Source of the DNA: a virus
Virus record (IMG/VR): IMGVR_UViG_3300005664_000037
Coordinates: 1-31,062 of that record
DNA: 31,062 bases
Direction: 5' to 3' (one strand)
A program made the translations under genes and the position numbers. Below the pieces are notes generated by a model. That model searched no databases. It was given only the letters and a program-made list of their open reading frames with translations, and was not told the DNA's origin. This document shows, piece after piece, positions 2,272-31,062 of this stretch (position 1 is the first letter of the stretch; each line of letters opens with the position of its first letter).

Positions 2272-2514
2272 CTACGAATTCGTTCGCTGTTCTTGCAATT
2301 GAGCAGAACCGCCACGGCTAATTTGTTGATCTCTAATTGCTTTGCCTACCCACATGTAAGCTTCTTCTAATTTATTAAAAACTAGAGACTGTGCGCGACC
2401 TGCTGGAAGCGAGTTAGCCACATGAATTTCAAGCTCCTTAAACATTGACTTGAAAGCCTCTTGATTTGTTTGCGCGTGATCATCGTATTTTACGTAATCA
2501 AAACGTCCTGACAT
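2272..2514 (-). CDS. Acb2/Tad1 hairpin-domain-like protein, candidate cyclic-nucleotide sponge
   Basis: Encodes 80 residues, nearly all helical. The motif GRAQSLVFNKLEEAYMWVGK followed by AIRDQQ (about residues 39-65) matches the pattern R..SLa.tKLEEA.MW...AI that I associate with the Acb2/Tad1 hairpin family of phage proteins. Known members bind and sequester the cyclic oligonucleotides made by CBASS, or the cADPR-type signals of Thoeris, and so block abortive defence. Seen here: the helix-hairpin pattern, the short length and a place in the accessory early operon. Inferred: a sponge function. The N-terminal Tyr/Lys ligand residues of characterised Acb2 cannot be aligned with certainty (FDYVKYDDHAQ is the candidate region), so the ligand, and even binding, is open. 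Confidence 0.55.
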   Translation of the reverse strand: MSGRFDYVKYDDHAQTNQEAFKSMFKELEIHVANSLPAGRAQSLVFNKLEEAYMWVGKAIRDQQISRGGSAQLQEQRTNS

Positions 2515-2793: not shown

Positions 2794-3075
2794 TTAATTC
2801 CCAAATGGCGGACATGCTTGTGCGAATCTATGAGCTCGTTCTTTTGCTTTATCACCGCACACTGGACACCATGGATCTTTTTTAGATAGAATCACGCAAG
2901 TTTCTTTTGCGCTGACTAACTCATTCTCAAGCTCATGTATTTTTAGCCGTTGAGTTTCGATTCTGTCGTTAGCTTCTTGCAGTGATTTACGAGTCGCCTT
3001 GAGCATTTCGTTTTCATCGTCGTTCTTAGTTTCAGTAAACATCGTGGTTCGATGTAGTCCGTCTAGTGATGTCAT
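2794..3075 (-). CDS. Coiled-coil protein with C-terminal zinc-ribbon-like CxxC
   Basis: Encodes 93 residues. Residues about 22-60 form a clear coiled coil (LKATRKSLQEANDRIETQRL and onward). Near the C-terminus there is a WCPVCGDKAKERAH stretch with a further Cys near the end, i.e. CxxC plus His/Cys ligands that could bind one zinc. The ATG overlaps the stop of the upstream gene (TAATG), so translation is probably coupled. The coil plus zinc knuckle could be a small adaptor or nucleic-acid binder. No family is recognised. Confidence 0.6.
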   Translation of the reverse strand: MTSLDGLHRTTMFTETKNDDENEMLKATRKSLQEANDRIETQRLKIHELENELVSAKETCVILSKKDPWCPVCGDKAKERAHRFAQACPPFGN

Positions 3076-3671
3076 TATTTCACTTCCGATCGATAGTATC
3101 GAATCGACTCTGTTATTATTTTCTTGTTCAGCTTGAATTCGCTTTCATCCCAAGTCGTAGTGCAGTCTTTGAGCTCAAATTTCTTTACTTCATCAAATGT
3201 GAACTTTCGACAACCCCATGACACTTGATTGTCTGCGATTGTGATGTGAAATTTCATACCGATGATATGCAGAGGGGTTTTCGAAGCGTCGCCGGACACC
3301 TGAGCGCCGCCGGACACCTGAGCGTCGCCGTACACCCGAGCGTTGCCGTACACCTGAGCGTTGCCGTACACCTGAGCGTTGCCGTACACCCGAGCGTCGC
3401 CGTACACCCGAGCGTCGCCGTACACCCGAGCGTTGCCGTACACCCGAGCGTTGCCGTACACCTGAGCGTTGCCGTACACCTGAGCGTTGCCGTACACCCA
3501 AGCGTCGCCGGACACGTCTAAGTGTTTTTCGCTTTCGATATAACCGCCGAGCTCACCTTCTCGTATCCCATAACGCTCAATTTTAGTTTTTGCTTTGATT
3601 CTAAAAACTTTCACGCCGAATACCGTGAGTTTAAAATCGGTTTGTATTAGTTCGTATTTTTCGTTTTTCAT
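3075..3671 (-). CDS. Hexapeptide-repeat protein (left-handed beta-helix type)
   Basis: Encodes 198 residues. Residues about 53-130 are 13 tandem six-residue units, most of the form VYGNAQ, VYGNAR or VYGDAR, with VSGDA variants at both ends. Hexads with a small or aliphatic residue at fixed positions build triangular left-handed beta-helices, as in bacterial acyltransferases and polymer-forming scaffold proteins. Here the repeat is not followed by a transferase active site but by about 65 residues with two cysteines. An ordered N-terminal cap (KIERYGIREGELGGYIESE) precedes it; phage and Bacteroidales hypotheticals with an EGELGGYIE cap are familiar to me, function unknown. It overlaps the DnaC-like gene by 4 nt (ATGA), with GGGGA ahead of its start. 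Confidence 0.7.
   Translation of the reverse strand: MKNEKYELIQTDFKLTVFGVKVFRIKAKTKIERYGIREGELGGYIESEKHLDVSGDAWVYGNAQVYGNAQVYGNARVYGNARVYGDARVYGDARVYGNAQVYGNAQVYGNARVYGDAQVSGGAQVSGDASKTPLHIIGMKFHITIADNQVSWGCRKFTFDEVKKFELKDCTTTWDESEFKLNKKIITESIRYYRSEVK
3282..3515 (-). repeat. 13 tandem 18-bp units inside the hexapeptide-repeat gene
   Basis: The 234 bp hold thirteen 18-bp units, with a consensus on the coding strand of GTGTACGGCAACGCTCAG. The inner units differ only at Asn/Asp and Gln/Arg codon positions, and runs of two or more neighbouring units are identical. Such near-identity in DNA suggests recent expansion by slippage or recombination. Since 18 is a multiple of three, gain or loss of units changes helix length without breaking the frame. 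Confidence 0.9.
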
Positions 3672-4429
3672 TTGGTCCCCTTTAATTGTTTCAATCTTTC
3701 TGAGTGAATATCCATGCGGCGGTCTTTGCCTTTAATTTCAACCATGACAGAGCATGCAATGATTCGAGAAAACACGCGTTCCCCGAATGTCTGTCTCATT
3801 TGCTCAAGCTTGCAGTTTGTAGAGAAGAAAGTTGGTAGATTGTTGTTTACTCGGTAGTCGAGAATTGAAATTAGTTTTTCAACGGCGTAGTCACTGAATT
3901 TGTGAGCCCCGAAATCGTCGATGAATAAATAATTATATTTTTGGATTTTCTCGATCTTTTTTAAAACTGATTCGTCCGCGCTGTATGAGTCTTTAAGCTG
4001 CTCAAGTAGCATCGATGCAGTATTCCAGTAGATGCTACCGTTTACAGCATAACCGTCGCTGGCTAGAGTGGAAGCAACGTGATTCAATATAGCCGTTAGC
4101 GCGTAAGTCTTTCCCGTACCAACCGGACCACAAATGCAGAATCCGAAATCCGAATACACACCCCAATTACTAAGCATTGCATAGATTTCTTCATTCTCAG
4201 ACTTAAGACTTTCAATACTGGCAGCGTTTGCATTGCACGGAAGGTGTTTATTTTTTTCAAAAAAATAGTCGTAGCTGTCCCAGCATCGATCAATTAACTT
4301 TTCACGCTCTGCATCTTTTTTCTGCTTTTCGCTCTCAATTTTTGCGGCCTCAATTTGCTCGGGCGTCATTTTTTGCCAAAGTTTATTAAGAAATTCCGAA
4401 GCCTCGGTGTTTGTTATTGTTTCACTCAT
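3668..4429 (-). CDS. DnaC-like replicative helicase loader (AAA+ ATPase)
   Basis: Encodes 253 residues, the usual size for DnaC/IstB-type loaders. The Walker A motif GPVGTGKT is at residues 101-108, Walker B LFIDDFG at 168-174, a sensor-like FFSTN at 201-205, and GERVFSRI (216-223) carries arginine-finger candidates. The N-terminal 90 residues are helical and charged, as expected of the helicase-binding part. Known role: loads the host DnaB-type hexameric helicase at the phage origin, in the cytoplasm. It overlaps the O-like initiator gene upstream by 4 nt (ATGA) and the next gene downstream by 4 nt, so the three are translated together. The pairing of initiator and loader mirrors lambda O/P-type modules. 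Confidence 0.85.
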   Translation of the reverse strand: MSETITNTEASEFLNKLWQKMTPEQIEAAKIESEKQKKDAEREKLIDRCWDSYDYFFEKNKHLPCNANAASIESLKSENEEIYAMLSNWGVYSDFGFCICGPVGTGKTYALTAILNHVASTLASDGYAVNGSIYWNTASMLLEQLKDSYSADESVLKKIEKIQKYNYLFIDDFGAHKFSDYAVEKLISILDYRVNNNLPTFFSTNCKLEQMRQTFGERVFSRIIACSVMVEIKGKDRRMDIHSERLKQLKGTK

Positions 4430-5229
4430 AGACCAAGCGCCTTTCGAGTTTCCTCGTCGGTCTGCTCAGACTGGTAGCCTTCGTTTAGTTTAGCTTGTGA
4501 AATGATTTTTCTATTGTCGTATGTGCCCTCGATAGCTTTTAGAGCTGTGTCGGGTTTTATCAAGAATTCAAAATCAGCTTTCCATCCCCGATCATTTTGT
4601 CCGTTACAAAATTGGCTATTAGCGATTCTTTTTATTATGTCCACCCATTCACCCTCGGAGTGTTCCGAAAATCGCGTGGCGGCCTTTTTGTTGCGATTAA
4701 GATTTGATTTAAATACTTTAGGCAACTGTCCAGAATGTTCATTCCAAAGCACTGCAAGCCGAGGTAACTCGACAAGAGTATTCTTTCTTTCTTTAATTCT
4801 TTTATTCTTTAATTCTTCATTATGTGGGACTGAATTGGGATACATTTGGGACGCAGTTGGGATGCAATTGGGATCTATTTGGGAATCCTCTGCGTCTTGT
4901 CCTTGATATCTCTCGTAATTATTGATTTTTAAAAATACGCCGCCGAAAGATCTTTCAACAAAAACTGTCTTTCTCAACGCTAAATAATTCAAATGTCGTA
5001 AAACGGTTTTTCGGTCACATTCGCCGAGTTCGGATAGCTCTAAAAGTGAGGTGATTATCTCGCCGCGTTCGAGCGTTCTTGGTTGACCATTCCACTCGAC
5101 AGTTGATGGTTGAATATTGGCCATGGCGATGATTGCACAAAACAAACCGCCACGAGTGTAATTAGAATTGATGTCCCCAAGGGCAGCTTTTCGATGAAGC
5201 TTAACCCAGCCGTTTAAATGCCTAGCCAC
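4426..5229 (-). CDS. Phage replication initiator / replisome organiser (O-like)
   Basis: About 267 residues from the GTG at 5229, chosen because GAGGT lies 6 nt upstream; a TTG 12 nt earlier lacks one. The N-terminal part (about residues 1-110) has the winged-helix pattern of phage replication proteins: HLNGWVKLHRKAAL, then ELGECDRKTVLRHLNYLAL as the recognition region, then FLKINNYERYQ. A low-complexity linker follows, and the C-terminal WVDIIKRIANSQFCNG with WKADFEFLIKPDTALKAIEG matches the conserved C-terminal domain of many phage replisome organisers. It would bind the phage origin and recruit the loader encoded next. It is the first gene after attP, which matters for its control (see findings). 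Confidence 0.8.
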   Translation of the reverse strand: MARHLNGWVKLHRKAALGDINSNYTRGGLFCAIIAMANIQPSTVEWNGQPRTLERGEIITSLLELSELGECDRKTVLRHLNYLALRKTVFVERSFGGVFLKINNYERYQGQDAEDSQIDPNCIPTASQMYPNSVPHNEELKNKRIKERKNTLVELPRLAVLWNEHSGQLPKVFKSNLNRNKKAATRFSEHSEGEWVDIIKRIANSQFCNGQNDRGWKADFEFLIKPDTALKAIEGTYDNRKIISQAKLNEGYQSEQTDEETRKALGL

Positions 5230-5242
5230 GGAACACCTCAAG

Positions 5243-5265
5243 TGGTGTCACAGTGGTGTCACTAA
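5243..5265. repeat. attP arm repeat, left copy
   Basis: A 23-bp sequence made of TGGTGTCAC, AG, TGGTGTCAC, TAA. An exact copy in the same orientation lies at 5475-5497 on the other side of the tRNA-like core. Each holds two 9-mers spaced 11 bp apart, about one helical turn. Paired arm sites flanking a core are what the N-terminal domain of a tyrosine integrase binds. The assignment follows from position and repetition. Confidence 0.7.
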
Positions 5266-5350
5266 CCCCGTATTTAGCACTATTTTCTAGACTTTCGTCT
5301 TTTTGAGTATTTCTAAGATTAACTTTGTAAGTAGTTGATTTTGTTAAAGA

Positions 5351-5410
5351 TGGTGCCCCGGGCCAGAATCGAACTGGCACGCCCGTTTGACCGAAGCCCA
5401 GGATTTTAAG
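5351..5410 (-). other. attP core: 3' part of a tRNA-Leu(UAA) gene
   Basis: On the minus strand the 60 bp read as the 3' part of a tRNA-Leu. They begin in the anticodon loop (CTTAAAA, anticodon UAA), then a long class II variable arm, a T arm GCCAG-TTCGATT-CTGGC, the acceptor strand CCGGGGC, a discriminator A and CCA. The sequence 5' of the anticodon loop does not pair with the 3' anticodon stem and has no D arm, so this is a fragment, not a gene. Phage integrases commonly target tRNA 3' ends and carry such a fragment so that the host tRNA is restored on insertion. The integrase gene ends 84 bp away and arm repeats flank both sides. Confidence 0.85.
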
Positions 5411-5474
5411 TGTTGATACCGATTTACTTATGCATTTAATATCATTAATGAATTCCGTTTTCATTTCTTCCCCA

Positions 5475-5497
5475 TGGTGTCACAGTGGTGTCACTAA
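5475..5497. repeat. attP arm repeat, right copy (overlaps integrase stop)
   Basis: An exact copy of the 23-bp sequence at 5243-5265, in the same orientation. Its last bases contain the TAG stop of the integrase gene (5494-5496). The spacing from the core is 64 bp on this side and 85 bp on the other. Taken with the core, this defines a compact attP of about 255 bp. Confidence 0.7.
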
Positions 5498-6573
5498 ACT
5501 GTGCGTTTTACTCCAAATTTCACGATTTCCCCGAAGCCTTTTAATCTCTCACCTGATAGCTCAGAATAGATATCCGTTGTCGAACTTGATGCGTGTCCTA
5601 AGATTGCTTGCAATGCTTTTATGTTGCCTGAGTTTTCAGCAAATGATCTACCATAAGTGTGCCTTAGTCCGTGAACATGAGTTCGAACGCCGGACTTCTC
5701 TGAAACCTCAATGATTAAATCATAGAACTGTCTTGGCCCCATAAAGCGGCCTGTAAAATCCTGAAATACGAATCCAGGTTTTGAGACCTCTTTCCAAGAC
5801 TTAAGAATCTCGTTCAAATCATCAGAATAGGGCACTATGCGCGTTTCTTTCGTCCCGCCCTTAGTTCCATCCTCTATTTTCATTGTCGTCTGTATGAGGC
5901 GTTTAGACACGTTTATGATTTGGCGTTTAAAATCGATATCATCCCATGTTAACGCCAAGACTTCAGACTTCCTAAGTCCGGCCATAATCACGATAGAACA
6001 TGCTGTTAAATGAAGCTGGCTTAGTTCCTTAGCAGATTTTAAAAACTTGATACACTCGTCGGTCGACGCAATATGAACCGGCTTGGCTTGCCCTACCCGC
6101 TTCTCATCAAACTTAATTCCGGTCACTGGGTTAAATCTAATTAGATCGCCGTTAAAAGCATCAGAGAACATTTTTGAAAGTAACGCTTTAACTCTCGTAC
6201 GAGTCGCTATCGATTTATTTTCTTCCTCGGTGATCTTTAAAAGAAGTGTTTTAATTTCCCTTGGATCAATTTTTGAAATTATGATTTCAGATAAATAAGG
6301 CAGAATATAGTCTCGAAGTCTTTGCTCATCAGCTTGCCAAGTCGCTGGACCGTAATTTTTAATGCGCTTTTTCATCCAGTCGCGTGCGAAGTCGATAAAC
6401 TTAAGCCCATCGTTAGGCCGATTCGGAACCATCAGGCCATTTGACGAAAATTGTTTCTTGACCTTCATTTGGTCATACCATGAGTCAGCGTCACTCTTTT
6501 TCTTAAATCGAGGTGACGGGACTATGTCGTTTCCAACTCTAATAAATCTGCGGTAGGTTTTCTGTGGCGGCAT
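5494..6573 (-). CDS. int: Tyrosine recombinase (phage integrase)
   Basis: Encodes 359 residues, a normal length. An N-terminal arm-binding region (about 1-50) is followed by a SAM-like core-binding domain (about 58-145, DFARDWMKKRIKNYGPATW) and the catalytic domain (about 165-345). The active-site residues are visible: Arg201 in AGLRKSEVLAL, a Lys near 239-242, His301 and Arg304 in HGLRH, His327 in LGH, and nucleophile Tyr336 in TDIYSEL. Known role: recombines attP with the bacterial attB to insert the phage and, with excisionase, to remove it. The ATG overlaps the stop of the excisionase gene (TAATG). The gene ends inside the right arm repeat of attP, and the core implies insertion at a tRNA-Leu(UAA) gene. 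Confidence 0.95.
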   Translation of the reverse strand: MPPQKTYRRFIRVGNDIVPSPRFKKKSDADSWYDQMKVKKQFSSNGLMVPNRPNDGLKFIDFARDWMKKRIKNYGPATWQADEQRLRDYILPYLSEIIISKIDPREIKTLLLKITEEENKSIATRTRVKALLSKMFSDAFNGDLIRFNPVTGIKFDEKRVGQAKPVHIASTDECIKFLKSAKELSQLHLTACSIVIMAGLRKSEVLALTWDDIDFKRQIINVSKRLIQTTMKIEDGTKGGTKETRIVPYSDDLNEILKSWKEVSKPGFVFQDFTGRFMGPRQFYDLIIEVSEKSGVRTHVHGLRHTYGRSFAENSGNIKALQAILGHASSSTTDIYSELSGERLKGFGEIVKFGVKRTV

Positions 6574-6869
6574 TATTTATTTTTCATTTCTCGTTCTAAA
6601 AAGTCTGCAATATATTCCGGCGTCGTGAAATATCGGCCTTTAATCTTAATGAACTTTAAGTCACCGTTTAGACGATATTCTCGAATAGTAGATTTACACC
6701 TACGAAGAAACTCGCCTGCCTCTTTTGGTGTCATCAAATCCGGCAAGTCCTCAGACTTAGTGATAGTCATCTGCTCAAACTTGTGAAGCTTGCGAACACT
6801 TGAGTTGGTTGACTTCTCACTTGGAGCATCCAGCCAGTTTTTATCAATTTGTACTTTGCGTGCGTTCAT
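6573..6869 (-). CDS. Excisionase-like helix-turn-helix protein
   Basis: Encodes 98 residues. The C-terminal half carries the MerR/excisionase-type winged helix: LMTPKEAGEFLRRCKSTIRE, then YRLNGDLKFIKIKGRYFTT and a final helix. This TPKEAA..L..S..T+R pattern is typical of small DNA-bending factors that direct integrase towards excision. The N-terminal 40 residues are unlike the family and probably flexible. GGGGA precedes the ATG. It is directly upstream of the integrase gene with overlapping stop and start codons, and a 26-codon ORF ends on its start codon. Confidence 0.8.
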   Translation of the reverse strand: MNARKVQIDKNWLDAPSEKSTNSSVRKLHKFEQMTITKSEDLPDLMTPKEAGEFLRRCKSTIREYRLNGDLKFIKIKGRYFTTPEYIADFLEREMKNK

Positions 6870-7341: not shown

Positions 7342-8058
7342 CTACCCAACCTTGCTTTCTTGCGCAGATAAACGCTTCCATTGATCACCGAAAGAGATAC
7401 CTACCATTTCAAGCATAGTATCCATATCGGATATAAATTGAGGGATCATTTCATCGAATTTCTTTTGATATTCAGAATCACGCTCTACCGTAATTGCCTT
7501 AAATGGAGTGACATTCATTCTTGGATCAAACTGCGCGAAATCTGCAACGTCAGCGCCCGTCACGCGCATTTGAAATTGATACTGCCACATGTATTCAGCT
7601 TTGATTTTGTCCTCAACTACAAACTTAATGTAATTTGTTGGATTGTATGGGCACTTTATTTCGATTATTTTATTAGAGCCTTTGATAAAGCCGTCAAGTG
7701 ATGCGCCTTCTCGAAATGTATCATCTTTAAAAATAAATCCGACGCTTTCAATTTCGCAATCATTTTGAAATTCATAAGAAGCTCTAGCCGCTGCTTCATG
7801 CATCTTTCCCCAGTCTAGGTATTTCGAATTGATTTCCTCAACAAAACCAGTCGCAACTTCTGAAACCAACTGACACATATAAGTGTTTCGAGTTTCAGTG
7901 CCAAGCTTTGCAACGGCTTTGTGGACTTCGCTAGCGGTGATCACGCCTAATCGTGCTTGAAGCCATGCAAGTGAACCCTGCTCTGCTTTAATAATATCAA
8001 CGCCGAATTTATCTTGAAATGACTTAATTTGTTGTTCTAAATTATTTAGTGTTTTCAT
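7342..8058 (-). CDS. YqaJ/lambda-exonuclease-type recombination nuclease
   Basis: Encodes 238 residues. The YqaJ viral recombinase motifs are in order: EQGSLAWLQARLGVITAS (26-43), LDWGKMHEAAARASYEF (81-97, with Glu88), SLDGF (120-124, Asp122), IIEIKCPY (131-138, Glu133 and Lys135 of the PD-(D/E)xK centre) and a Gln-rich YQFQM (160-164). Known role: 5'-3' resection of double-stranded DNA to give single-stranded tails for an annealing partner. That partner, RecT, is encoded just upstream and the two reading frames overlap by 17 nt. GAGGT precedes the ATG. Together they form a two-component recombination module, useful for replication through concatemers and for genetic exchange. Confidence 0.9.
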   Translation of the reverse strand: MKTLNNLEQQIKSFQDKFGVDIIKAEQGSLAWLQARLGVITASEVHKAVAKLGTETRNTYMCQLVSEVATGFVEEINSKYLDWGKMHEAAARASYEFQNDCEIESVGFIFKDDTFREGASLDGFIKGSNKIIEIKCPYNPTNYIKFVVEDKIKAEYMWQYQFQMRVTGADVADFAQFDPRMNVTPFKAITVERDSEYQKKFDEMIPQFISDMDTMLEMVGISFGDQWKRLSAQESKVG

Positions 8059-9001
8059 CTTTTACCTCATTTTTTGGTTTTGCTTTTAGCCATGAATAAA
8101 GCTGGATTAATACTTGCTCGACTTCTTTTTTAGAAAGATCCTCGACCGATTCAATGGTTCTTTTGTTTACCGTGCATAAATATGCAATGAATTTTGACTC
8201 GTCTTTATTTAAAGAATTAAGCAAATTTCTAATCTCTTGAAACTTCTCAGTTAGCTCATTTACTTTAGGAGCCTCAATCATCGGCGGCGTCACATCAATA
8301 GCGTCAACTTCATCTTGTGCAGCAATGGCCGTTTCAAAGCGACCGCCGTTAGTCATCGGCCATGCTTTAGAGGCTCTGCGAATCACGGTCTTTTTAATCA
8401 TCTCGCCCTCATCAGAAACCCAAGGGCACGACTTAGTTTTGCCGTCCATATAGGCTTTATAGGCTTGTGTTCTGTCTCTGATTGCGTAGATTTCATCAAT
8501 GGTCATAGTCTCAACTAAAAACTTATTTCCGGTCAATTCAGCCACGCAATAAGCGCCTCGAACATCGCCCCTGTCCGAAGCAAATGGATCACGCTCATGC
8601 ATTGGCTCTTGGCCTCGACCGCGCAATGCAAACTTATCTTTTTCGTAGACAATTTCAGCTTGAACATAAAGAACAGCGCCCGCGTCCATTGCTAAATGAG
8701 AAAGACCCTTGTAGCCAAAATCAAGACAAACCTTTTTATCGCGTGGAACCAAGTAAGCGTGTTTAAGGGCCGGATTTAAAGACAATCCAACCGATGCGAT
8801 ATTGTGAACTGCATTTAAAAGTGAATCAGGATTTTCAGCCGCAGTTTTGGCTAGGAAATCATTCGCTCTTAGAGCCTGCAAAGCGAAATGCGCTTCCTGC
8901 TCAAAGTTCACGGCTTTATGAGATTTCGCAAGATCAACAAACTTTTTAGATTGCGACATGATAAGAGATTCGGATTTCTGAAAAAGAGAAATATTGCTCA
9001 C
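8042..9001 (-). CDS. recT: RecT-type single-strand annealing protein
   Basis: Encodes 319 residues. RecT family features run from about residue 30: ANDFLAKTAAENPDSLLNAV, VGLSLNPALKHAYLVPRD, then LDFGYKGLSHLA and YVQAEIVYEKDKF, followed by KTVIRRASKAWPM. The last 80 residues are a charged, less conserved tail. Known role: binds single-stranded DNA and pairs complementary strands in phage recombination. The start is a GTG at 9001 whose bases overlap the TGA of the preceding gene (GTGA); AGGTGG lies 6 nt ahead. The gene sits directly before its nuclease partner. Confidence 0.93.
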   Translation of the reverse strand: MSNISLFQKSESLIMSQSKKFVDLAKSHKAVNFEQEAHFALQALRANDFLAKTAAENPDSLLNAVHNIASVGLSLNPALKHAYLVPRDKKVCLDFGYKGLSHLAMDAGAVLYVQAEIVYEKDKFALRGRGQEPMHERDPFASDRGDVRGAYCVAELTGNKFLVETMTIDEIYAIRDRTQAYKAYMDGKTKSCPWVSDEGEMIKKTVIRRASKAWPMTNGGRFETAIAAQDEVDAIDVTPPMIEAPKVNELTEKFQEIRNLLNSLNKDESKFIAYLCTVNKRTIESVEDLSKKEVEQVLIQLYSWLKAKPKNEVKDENTK

Positions 9002-9364: not shown

Positions 9365-9574
9365 TTAAGAAGCTTTGATAAAGAGATCGTCCTCTCTTAT
9401 TCTTAAGCATTTACATAATCTCTTAATCGTCCGTCTAGATAGCTTGCTTGGATACCTACCAGCCCTAAGCTTCTCTAGAGTGGATATACCGATGCCACCT
9501 TCAATGGAGGCTTCGGCAAGCCCTATTTCTTCTATCTTTTTTCTAATCAAGTCTTTGTTAATCTCAGAACTCAT
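9365..9574 (-). CDS. Small Cro-like helix-turn-helix regulator
   Basis: About 69 residues from the ATG at 9574 (MSSEINKDLIRKK). The longer frame to 9589 would begin inside the first operator and upstream of the predicted transcription start. An XRE-type fold is visible: IGLAEASIEGGIGISTLEKL as helices 2-3 and RTIKRLCKCLRI as helix 5. As the first gene of the early leftward operon, transcribed away from the repressor gene, it holds the position of Cro in lambdoid phages and would shut off repressor synthesis during lytic growth. The message is probably leaderless: no ribosome binding site is present and the ATG falls at the expected start point. Confidence 0.75.
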   Translation of the reverse strand: MSSEINKDLIRKKIEEIGLAEASIEGGIGISTLEKLRAGRYPSKLSRRTIKRLCKCLRIREDDLFIKAS

Positions 9575-9609
9575 ATAACCACAATACATGGTTTACCATT
9601 AAAATGCAA
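9574..9609 (-). promoter_or_regulatory. Early leftward promoter (pL-like)
   Basis: On the minus strand TTGCAT (9609-9604) and TATTGT (9586-9581) are separated by exactly 17 bp. The 12-bp operator ATGGTAAACCAT lies in this spacer, so a bound repressor would block polymerase directly. The start point about 7 nt after the -10 box falls on the ATG at 9574. Confidence 0.65.
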
Positions 9610-9652
9610 GTATTTTTAATGTTTAACCATATTTATTTATGGGTTTAACCAT
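9588..9652. promoter_or_regulatory. Immunity operators: three ATGG..CCAT palindromes
   Basis: Three related sites lie between the divergent HTH genes: ATGGTTTACCAT (9588-9599), ATGTTTAACCAT (9619-9630) and ATGGGTTTAACCAT (9639-9652). All fit a dyad ATGGTTAACCAT with one to three changes. The right half-sites are 31 and 22 bp apart, about three and two helical turns, so dimers would sit on one face. Three spaced operators between cI-like and cro-like genes is the lambdoid arrangement. Confidence 0.7.
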
Positions 9653-9667
9653 AATAGGCTGTAACTA

Positions 9668-10003
9668 ATGGATATCTTTAAAATAAATGGAAATTTCGTT
9701 TTAGAATTAAGAGATCAGCTTAAGTGGACAAGGGAGAAACTAAGCGAAGAGTCAGGGGTTCCCGTAGGAACACTGCAAGACATTGAGAATGGAAAATCAA
9801 AAGATCCAGGCATTGAAAATATCAAAAAACTATTAAAAGCGTTGCCTAACTTTACCCAATATCAAAAAAAGAGTGAATTAATCGGCGAAATCGTTTTGGC
9901 CCTTTCCGCCTTGGATTATGACCAACTTAGGTCTGTCGCGGAAAGCATCGACAGCCTTCCTCCGCCCTCTAGCCTTGATTCTAAGGCAACAACCACAGAC
10001 TAA
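9668..10003 (+). CDS. CI-like XRE-family repressor (short, no protease domain)
   Basis: Encodes 111 residues. Residues about 10-60 are a textbook XRE helix-turn-helix: LRDQLKWTREKLSEESGVPV, GTLQDIENGKSKDPG, then IKKLLKALP. The C-terminal 45 residues may serve for dimerisation. No S24/LexA peptidase domain (Ala-Gly cleavage site, Ser/Lys dyad) is present, so induction by RecA-driven self-cleavage is not expected. Some other signal or an antirepressor would be needed. The start has no ribosome binding site, as is common for repressors made from a leaderless or near-leaderless message. It diverges from the Cro-like gene across three operators. Confidence 0.8.
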   Translation: MDIFKINGNFVLELRDQLKWTREKLSEESGVPVGTLQDIENGKSKDPGIENIKKLLKALPNFTQYQKKSELIGEIVLALSALDYDQLRSVAESIDSLPPPSSLDSKATTTD

Positions 10004-14673: not shown

Positions 14674-14747
14674 TGGGGTGACGTGTGAGAACCGAACTCA
14701 CGTGACCAGGATCACAACCTGATGAACTACCACTGTTCTAACGCCAC
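14674..14747 (-). tRNA. tRNA-His (GTG), unusual 5' end and T loop
   Basis: 74 nt folding as a full cloverleaf: acceptor GTGGCGT/ACGTCAC, D stem GAAC/GTTC, anticodon stem TCAGG/CCTGG with loop TTGTGAT, T stem GTGAG/CTCAC, discriminator C and encoded CCA. The anticodon GTG gives histidine. Two oddities: the base before G1 is T, so the usual extra G-1 of tRNA-His is not encoded, and the T loop TTCGGTT has G where A58 is nearly universal. It lies 2 nt after tRNA-Gln and probably shares its transcript. Confidence 0.88.
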
Positions 14748-14749
14748 AT

Positions 14750-14823
14750 TGGAAGGGGATCTAGGATTTGAACCTAGAACGCGAGAGTCAAAGTCCCGCA
14801 TGTTACCATTACACTAATCCCCA
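14750..14823 (-). tRNA. tRNA-Gln (TTG)
   Basis: 74 nt including encoded CCA. Acceptor TGGGGAT/ATCCCCT has an unpaired first position, which is typical of glutamine tRNAs (weak 1-72 pair). D stem GTGT/ACAT, anticodon stem CGGGA/TCTCG with loop CTTTGAC, T arm CTAGG-TTCAAAT-CCTAG. The anticodon TTG reads CAA and CAG. It is the first gene of the minus-strand island. Confidence 0.9.
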
Positions 14824-30371: not shown

Positions 30372-30848
30372 ATGGGAATTTTAGAAAAATTAGAAGCTAA
30401 AAAACTATCAATTGAAGCTGAGTTTAACAGCAAGATCGAAGTTATTGAGGCAAACGCTGCACAACAAAAAGGTGAAGTTGAGTTGCTTAAATCATCACAA
30501 CTTAATGAACTTGCTGAAATGGAAATTCAACTAGCGATTGATTTAAAAGCCGCTGAGGACAAAGGTTTTGATTTAGGCCTAGCACAAGCTGGCATTCCTG
30601 CGACTGACAAGATCTACACTGAGGCAGATTTACAAGCTGAAAAGGAATTAGTGGCTAAGCCTTTTTTGGCACAAGTCGCGCTCCTAGAGGGCAAAGTGGC
30701 AGAATTGCAGAGCGCAGTAGACTCAATTCCAGCAATGATCGCAGCTGAAGTTAAGACGGCAAAAGCTCAACTTCTAGAAAAAATCAAAGCGACTAAAGCC
30801 GATGATAATTCTCTAGTGGCTGAATTAGAAGCGGAAACAGCTGGGTAA
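30372..30848 (+). CDS. Coiled-coil hypothetical protein
   Basis: 158 residues, Ala/Glu/Lys-rich, with coils at about 1-60 (LEAKKLSIEAEFNSKIEVIE) and 90-158. A short break DLGLAQAGIPATDKIYTEAD lies between. No membrane segment or cysteine. A strong AAGGAGG precedes the ATG, suggesting high expression like the gene before it. It may be a late structural or lysis-associated protein; it overlaps the next start (TAATG). Family not recognised. Confidence 0.65.
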   Translation: MGILEKLEAKKLSIEAEFNSKIEVIEANAAQQKGEVELLKSSQLNELAEMEIQLAIDLKAAEDKGFDLGLAQAGIPATDKIYTEADLQAEKELVAKPFLAQVALLEGKVAELQSAVDSIPAMIAAEVKTAKAQLLEKIKATKADDNSLVAELEAETAG

Positions 30849-31062
30849 TGATTCACGTTGAGCATAAGACCTTAATCATTCGGGGCGGAGCAAGTTTTAA
30901 TGTGTACGGTGATCCGTATGATTATTGCTTATCTGTTTTCATTGATGGGACTCATGCTCATATTTTCGGTCTTTGTGGGAAGTTTTCTCACAAGGACTAT
31001 CAAGATGTTAAAAACGCGCTGATATCTTTAGGGATAACAAAAGCGCATTGGGAAAGAAAAAA
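30848..31062 (+). CDS. Conserved phage hypothetical protein, truncated by the window edge
   Basis: The ATG at 30848 overlaps the previous stop (TAATG), and the frame is open to the edge: 71 full codons. It reads MIHVEHKTLIIRGGASFNVY, GDPYDYCLSVFIDGTHAHIF, GLCGKFSHKDYQDVKNALIS, then WERKK. The pattern RGGA.F..YG.P.D.C.SVFIDG..A.I.GL.G, ending near WERKK, is one I have seen in small phage proteins of unknown function, where WERKK is close to the C-terminus. Only the last codons and stop may therefore be missing. Confidence 0.7.
   Translation, partial: MIHVEHKTLIIRGGASFNVYGDPYDYCLSVFIDGTHAHIFGLCGKFSHKDYQDVKNALISLGITKAHWERK

Follow-up and report, generated by a model that had tools for sequence, protein, structure and literature searches.

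The stretch of DNA analysed here (the window) is a virus record of 31,062 bases in the unintegrated form. It is best explained as an unintegrated temperate phage of the Bdellovibrionaceae with a tyrosine integrase that targets the 3' half of tRNA-Leu(UAA). A minus-strand array running from ∼9589 to 412 encodes, in this order, a Cro-like protein, RecT, a YqaJ exonuclease, an excisionase-like protein and the integrase (int), followed by the attP core, a replication initiator, a DnaC-like helicase loader, a β-solenoid protein and an Acb2/Tad1-hairpin protein (Table 1). The genes are closely packed from RecT to the neighbours of the initiator, except for 264 nt that separate int from the initiator gene, where attP lies. 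The ends of the window share no repeat and one reading frame runs off each of them (1-166 and 30848-31062). The record may be short of complete, and its circular order across the ends is presumably that of G064, an integrated relative described below. No endolysin was recognised in the window, whereas the corresponding position in G064 holds a peptidase-like gene (L083:11560-11952).

Table 1. Features of the early region of the window, in the order of the minus-strand array.
Feature	Position	Strand	Evidence and remarks
CI-like repressor	9668-10003	+	HTH_3 5.3e-12; divergent from early array
Operator-like palindromes ATGGTTTACCAT and ATGTTTAACCAT	9588-9599, 9619-9630	.	Sequence and motif search
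Presumed early promoter	9581-9630	-	TTGCAT 9609-9604, TATTGT 9586-9581; sequence and motif search; score not above shuffles
Cro-like gene	9365-9589	-	Divergent from repressor
RecT	8042-9001	-	Promoter-proximal half of early array
YqaJ exonuclease	7342-8058	-	Promoter-proximal half of early array
Excisionase-like HTH_17 protein	6573-6869	-	PHROG excisionase 2.8e-6; HTH_17 3.2e-8; G064 copy 69% identical
Tyrosine integrase (int)	5494-6573	-	Phage_integrase 7.8e-25; PHROG integrase 8e-52; adjoins attP; in G064 and G018, adjoins the tRNA fragment of attR
Probable integrase arm-type sites, int side	5475-5497	.	Perfect 23-nt direct repeat of 5243-5265; overlaps end of int
attP core (tRNA-Leu(UAA) 3' half, anticodon loop to CCA)	5351-5410	-	60/60 identity to host tRNA-Leu(taa)
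Probable integrase arm-type sites, initiator side	5243-5265	.	Same 23-nt repeat; ends ∼14 nt before initiator start
Replication initiator (O-like/DnaD-like)	4426-5229	-	GTG start 5229, SD-like GAGGTG; PHROG DnaD-like and O-like replication families (1.9e-18, 2.8e-14)
Iterons within initiator gene, likely replication origin	4825-4884	.	∼5.5 x 11 nt; tandem-repeat search
DnaC-like helicase loader	3668-4429	-	PHROG 4.3e-35; IstB_IS21 2.2e-11
β-solenoid (YdcK/hexapeptide-type repeat) protein	3075-3671	-	PF18836 2.5e-19; same array
Acb2/Tad1-hairpin protein	2272-2514	-	PF24729 1.2e-7; same array; also in G064 array beside tRNA-Leu

The first-pass annotation of this DNA had placed an early promoter at ∼9600. 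The divergent repressor and Cro-like genes and the operator-like palindromes make an early control region at this position plausible, but the score of the presumed promoter itself is not above that of shuffled sequences. Indeed, sigma-70 scans by two methods returned only scores at the shuffle level. The annotation had further reported no strong promoter between 5229 and 5350, and the scans likewise give none; since they also fail to pick out the presumed early promoter, they are without power here. Each of the three sequences scored has AT-rich promoter-like hexamers after the core, none of them scoring above shuffled sequence.

That int, the attP core and the initiator share one strand, as the same annotation had claimed, is borne out by the domain matches and by the complete identity of the core to the tRNA. 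Matches of 60/60 were found in Bdellovibrio sp. 28-41-41 and in Bdellovibrionaceae UBA2351 and UBA2316 (L020, L021 and L023), where ARAGORN identifies a complete 92-nt tRNA-Leu(taa) of which the core is the 3' part. Window base 5411 also matches the host tRNA, and the identity ends there. The core lies between int and the initiator, and the spacing from core to initiator, put at ∼120 nt in the annotation, is 121 nt on the same strand. At the empty sites of the three nearest hosts, a strong intrinsic terminator is present within ∼75 nt after tRNA-Leu (−12.8, −12.5 and −10.8 kcal/mol). Insertion shifts this terminator to the far end of the element and no obvious replacement was found in the int-initiator gap of the window, which would leave the replication genes of a lysogen open to read-through. 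The element TCAANTACTTA at 5328-5338, ∼11-15 nt past the tRNA CCA, occurs at tRNA-Leu in the G064 prophage and in some genomes as well (L071, L089, L094 and L098, the last with one mismatch). It is not specific to phages, being present after tRNA-Leu in G062 and G071 too, and could represent a trailer or a recombination element that is shared.

A perfect 23-nt direct repeat, which the annotation had not recorded, lies on both sides of the core. Each copy consists of two TGACACCA units in tandem, 11 nt apart, and the unit TGGTGTCAC occurs without mismatch at only these four places in the window. Such a layout of tandem units on either side of a core is typical of integrase arm-type sites. Arm-like tandem repeats, some of them degenerate, surround the core in four of the five phages known to have this layout, with related ones in G064, L122 and G018.

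Of 144 genomes of the class that were searched, two (G064 and G018) carry a close integrase whose gene is immediately followed, on its own strand, by a 3' fragment of tRNA-Leu. In G064, attR lies on contig C71, where int (63% identical to that of the window) is followed by the tRNA fragment, and attL lies on contig C89, which has a complete tRNA-Leu and, 122 nt further on, an intact gene for a 345-aa protein at the place of the initiator. The product of this gene matches no family above the cut-off, but is 34% identical to the initiator of L122, which itself matches PHROG replication initiation families. In all likelihood C71 and C89 represent opposite ends of a single prophage, since both contigs end in the same tail-fibre gene and the late genes of the window map along C71. 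The host flank preceding the G064 tRNA matches the upstream flank of other genomes. In G018, both junctions are on one contig, 42.5 kb apart (attL C12:138859-138950; attR C12:96275-96338). Its attL shows a complete tRNA-Leu, a small gene and then, 405 nt away on the same strand, an initiator whose N-terminal part is 44% identical, and int is at the opposite end beside the tRNA 3' fragment. The host sequence past this fragment matches the one found directly after tRNA-Leu in four other genomes. The G018 counterparts of the exonuclease and RecT (7342-9001) are 66% and 74% identical. In both relatives a complete tRNA-Leu is restored at attL and the window has a Phage_integrase gene beside attP, as in other phages that target tRNA genes.

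The junction order predicted from the window, with the rebuilt tRNA followed by the initiator and int at the far end, is thus the one seen in both close relatives. Integrases in the opposite order do not speak against it, since they belong to other lineages (28-32% identical for two at the same tRNA-Leu). Within the class, eight loci with more distant integrases have the downstream tRNA end convergent with int (on the opposite strand), and G064 and G018 alone have it on the strand of int; the convergent form dominates among broader viral relatives too. Two viral loci with a same-strand tRNA fragment past int (G178 and G177) were set aside, as the next genes are on the opposite strand and do not look replication-like. 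At this same tRNA-Leu(UAA), a separate integrase lineage (L038 and L039; 31-32% and 29-31% identical) is arranged the other way round, int and the complete tRNA being convergent.

Searching viral contigs with the initiator protein found no relative, and the integrase alone retrieved only relatives of 22-30% identity; relatives were better found by integrase alignment, RecT and terminase. The unintegrated phage L122 has int (51% identical), the tRNA-Leu(UAA) core and the initiator on one strand with 180 nt from core to initiator. The same order is found, with 131 nt, in the unintegrated phage L284/G149, which has an integrase of only 29% identity, Erf and ExoVIII instead of RecT and YqaJ, and an initiator followed by a DnaB-like helicase. 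The layout is therefore known in five phages (the window, G064, G018, L122 and L284/G149). Phage L124 has no xis-int-attP module. It encodes RecT, an HNH-like protein, the exonuclease and the initiator, the last two separated by 21 nt on the same strand, and its integrase gene lies elsewhere on the other strand, which suggests that the initiator belongs naturally to the early array. The early and replication genes hence look like one operon, inside which the lineage of the window has a xis-int-attP module.

In the integrated state of G064 and G018, the presumed promoter half and its target genes are at opposite ends of the element and are joined on one strand at attP only. The control region, recT, exo, xis and int end at attR, and the initiator and accessory genes begin ∼120-400 nt past tRNA-Leu. 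On the evidence of these junctions, integration physically splits an early operon, leaving int on one side of the break and the initiator and its likely origin on the other. We propose, as the simplest functional reading, that attP acts as a circularisation gate, by which transcription from the early promoter arrives at the replication genes only by way of attP, in circular DNA, and we assign this reading a probability of ∼0.55. In circular DNA, after infection or excision, early transcription would cross attP into the initiator and the origin. The replication genes of a lysogen would be mostly silent, exposed only to read-through from tRNA-Leu, and upon induction, expression would begin with recT, exo, xis and int and extend to the replication genes only after excision. 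Replication would accordingly be held back until the phage has excised. Some hairpin-plus-T sequences within the array of the window count against this reading.

The initiator might instead have its own promoter in the int-initiator gap, in which case integration would have no regulatory effect and the gene order would be neutrally inherited. The 264 nt provide room, promoter-like AT-rich hexamers follow the core in the three sequences scored, and the gap can be partly aligned between the window and G064. However, no hexamer exceeds the shuffles, the best conserved blocks of the gap are the arm-like repeats, the 21 nt between exonuclease and initiator in L124 leave little room for a promoter, and the order is kept in G149 despite its very different integrase and recombination genes. 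On balance we regard such a promoter as rather unlikely.

A stronger version of the proposed gate, in which the placement of attP is fixed as an obligate excision-before-replication checkpoint, with basal expression of the Acb2-like gene in the lysogen by read-through from tRNA-Leu, is put forward tentatively and is itself unlikely. Under this checkpoint, in situ replication of the prophage and lateral transduction would be barred by gene order, as the early promoter of the prophage could neither yield initiator nor transcribe the origin. Whether replication comes before or after excision sets the amount of host DNA that a prophage can mobilise, and even P22, long assumed to excise first, is reported to perform lateral transduction (PMC8575938). 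A phage family in which the order of genes would by itself impose excision first makes this question testable by moving one site.

Read-through from the tRNA-Leu promoter could also be useful in its own right, giving the lysogen low-level expression of the replication, β-solenoid and Acb2-like genes, for example as a standing anti-CBASS protection. It would be favoured by the same-strand initiator 121-405 nt past the tRNA, an arrangement seen in both prophages, by the displaced terminator, and by the Acb2/Tad1-hairpin gene in the tRNA-side half of both the window and G064. Constant synthesis of initiator beside an origin should, however, harm the lysogen, and a weak hairpin with a T-rich tail stands just before the G064 initiator. 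A useful role for read-through is distinctly unlikely, and silencing by separation from the early promoter is the likelier outcome. In a limited literature search, the present arrangement of a tRNA promoter reading into a prophage at attL was not found described.

Finally, a leader frame spanning attP (5222-5464 on the minus strand, 80 aa, overlapping the initiator start) could couple translation on the int side to the initiator, so that integration would break the frame and read-through in the lysogen would be untranslated and lost, but this is highly improbable and the frame was dropped as a main mechanism. In its favour, a frame that opens in the interval from int to the core and continues without a stop as far as the next gene is present in the window, G064 and L122, and in G018 up to a 54-aa gene before the initiator; 2-5% of dinucleotide shuffles do the same for each phage, and the frame that passes through the core differs between the window and G064. 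Against it, such a frame is missing in the fifth phage (G149), no peptide is conserved, the initiator carries an SD-like sequence of its own, the four phages with an open frame are relatives of one another and the test was partly post hoc.

The layout can be compared with that of known elements. In lambda, int is the last gene of the pL operon, next to attP, and the replication genes belong to the second early operon, whose promoter is kept in the prophage. The window shares with lambda the order of early promoter, recombination genes, xis, int and attP, as well as iterons within the initiator gene. Unlike in lambda, where the replication genes of the prophage keep their promoter, the lineage of the window splits them off.

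The closest counterpart in regulation would be the circularisation-dependent transcription of Tn916. Integration parts the replication genes of Tn916 from their promoter and excision rejoins them across the attachment site (Celli and Trieu-Cuot 1998, via PMC6540685, PMC9956884), and transcripts across the joined site have been demonstrated (PMC6540685, PMC9956884). The geometry is the same, with the promoter parted from the replication genes when integrated. However, Tn916 is conjugative and has many insertion sites, whereas the window is a temperate phage with one tRNA-Leu site and a phage initiator and loader. The proposed gate would extend this type of control to phages, here of Bdellovibrio-like predatory bacteria; a limited literature search found no description of it for a phage. 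The mycobacteriophage BPs and its relatives show integration-dependent immunity with attP within the repressor gene (PMC4557955). They resemble the window in that the position of attP makes the integration state alter phage gene expression, but here attP is not in the repressor gene, which is intact and far from it (Table 1). In the STI and OC shapes of tRNA integrases, int is beside the complete tRNA, and transcriptional coupling to the tRNA has been raised as a possible benefit (PMC2951348). These shapes likewise involve a tyrosine integrase that inserts at the 3' half of a tRNA gene, whereas in G064 and G018 int is at attR with the 3' fragment and the replication genes are beside the complete tRNA.

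Several further features were observed at these loci. The gene after the G064 initiator (L083:2886-4277), which occupies the place of the DnaC-like and β-solenoid genes of the window, contains a long alanine-threonine-rich repeat block and a DUF6745 match, and the tRNA-proximal array of this prophage also encodes a Sigma-70 region 4 protein (a phage sigma factor; L083:5890-6501). Just past the G064 attR, an apparent piece of a serine recombinase gene (L061:76-579) reads towards the fragment, and a second element may be present in tandem at this tRNA-Leu. An apparent second tRNA fragment in G001 (C152) was rejected as probably a contig overlap, the downstream sequence being the same as in C146. 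In the window, complete phage tRNA-His(gtg) and tRNA-Gln(ttg) genes are located at 14674-14823 on the minus strand, opposed to the direction of the surrounding late genes.
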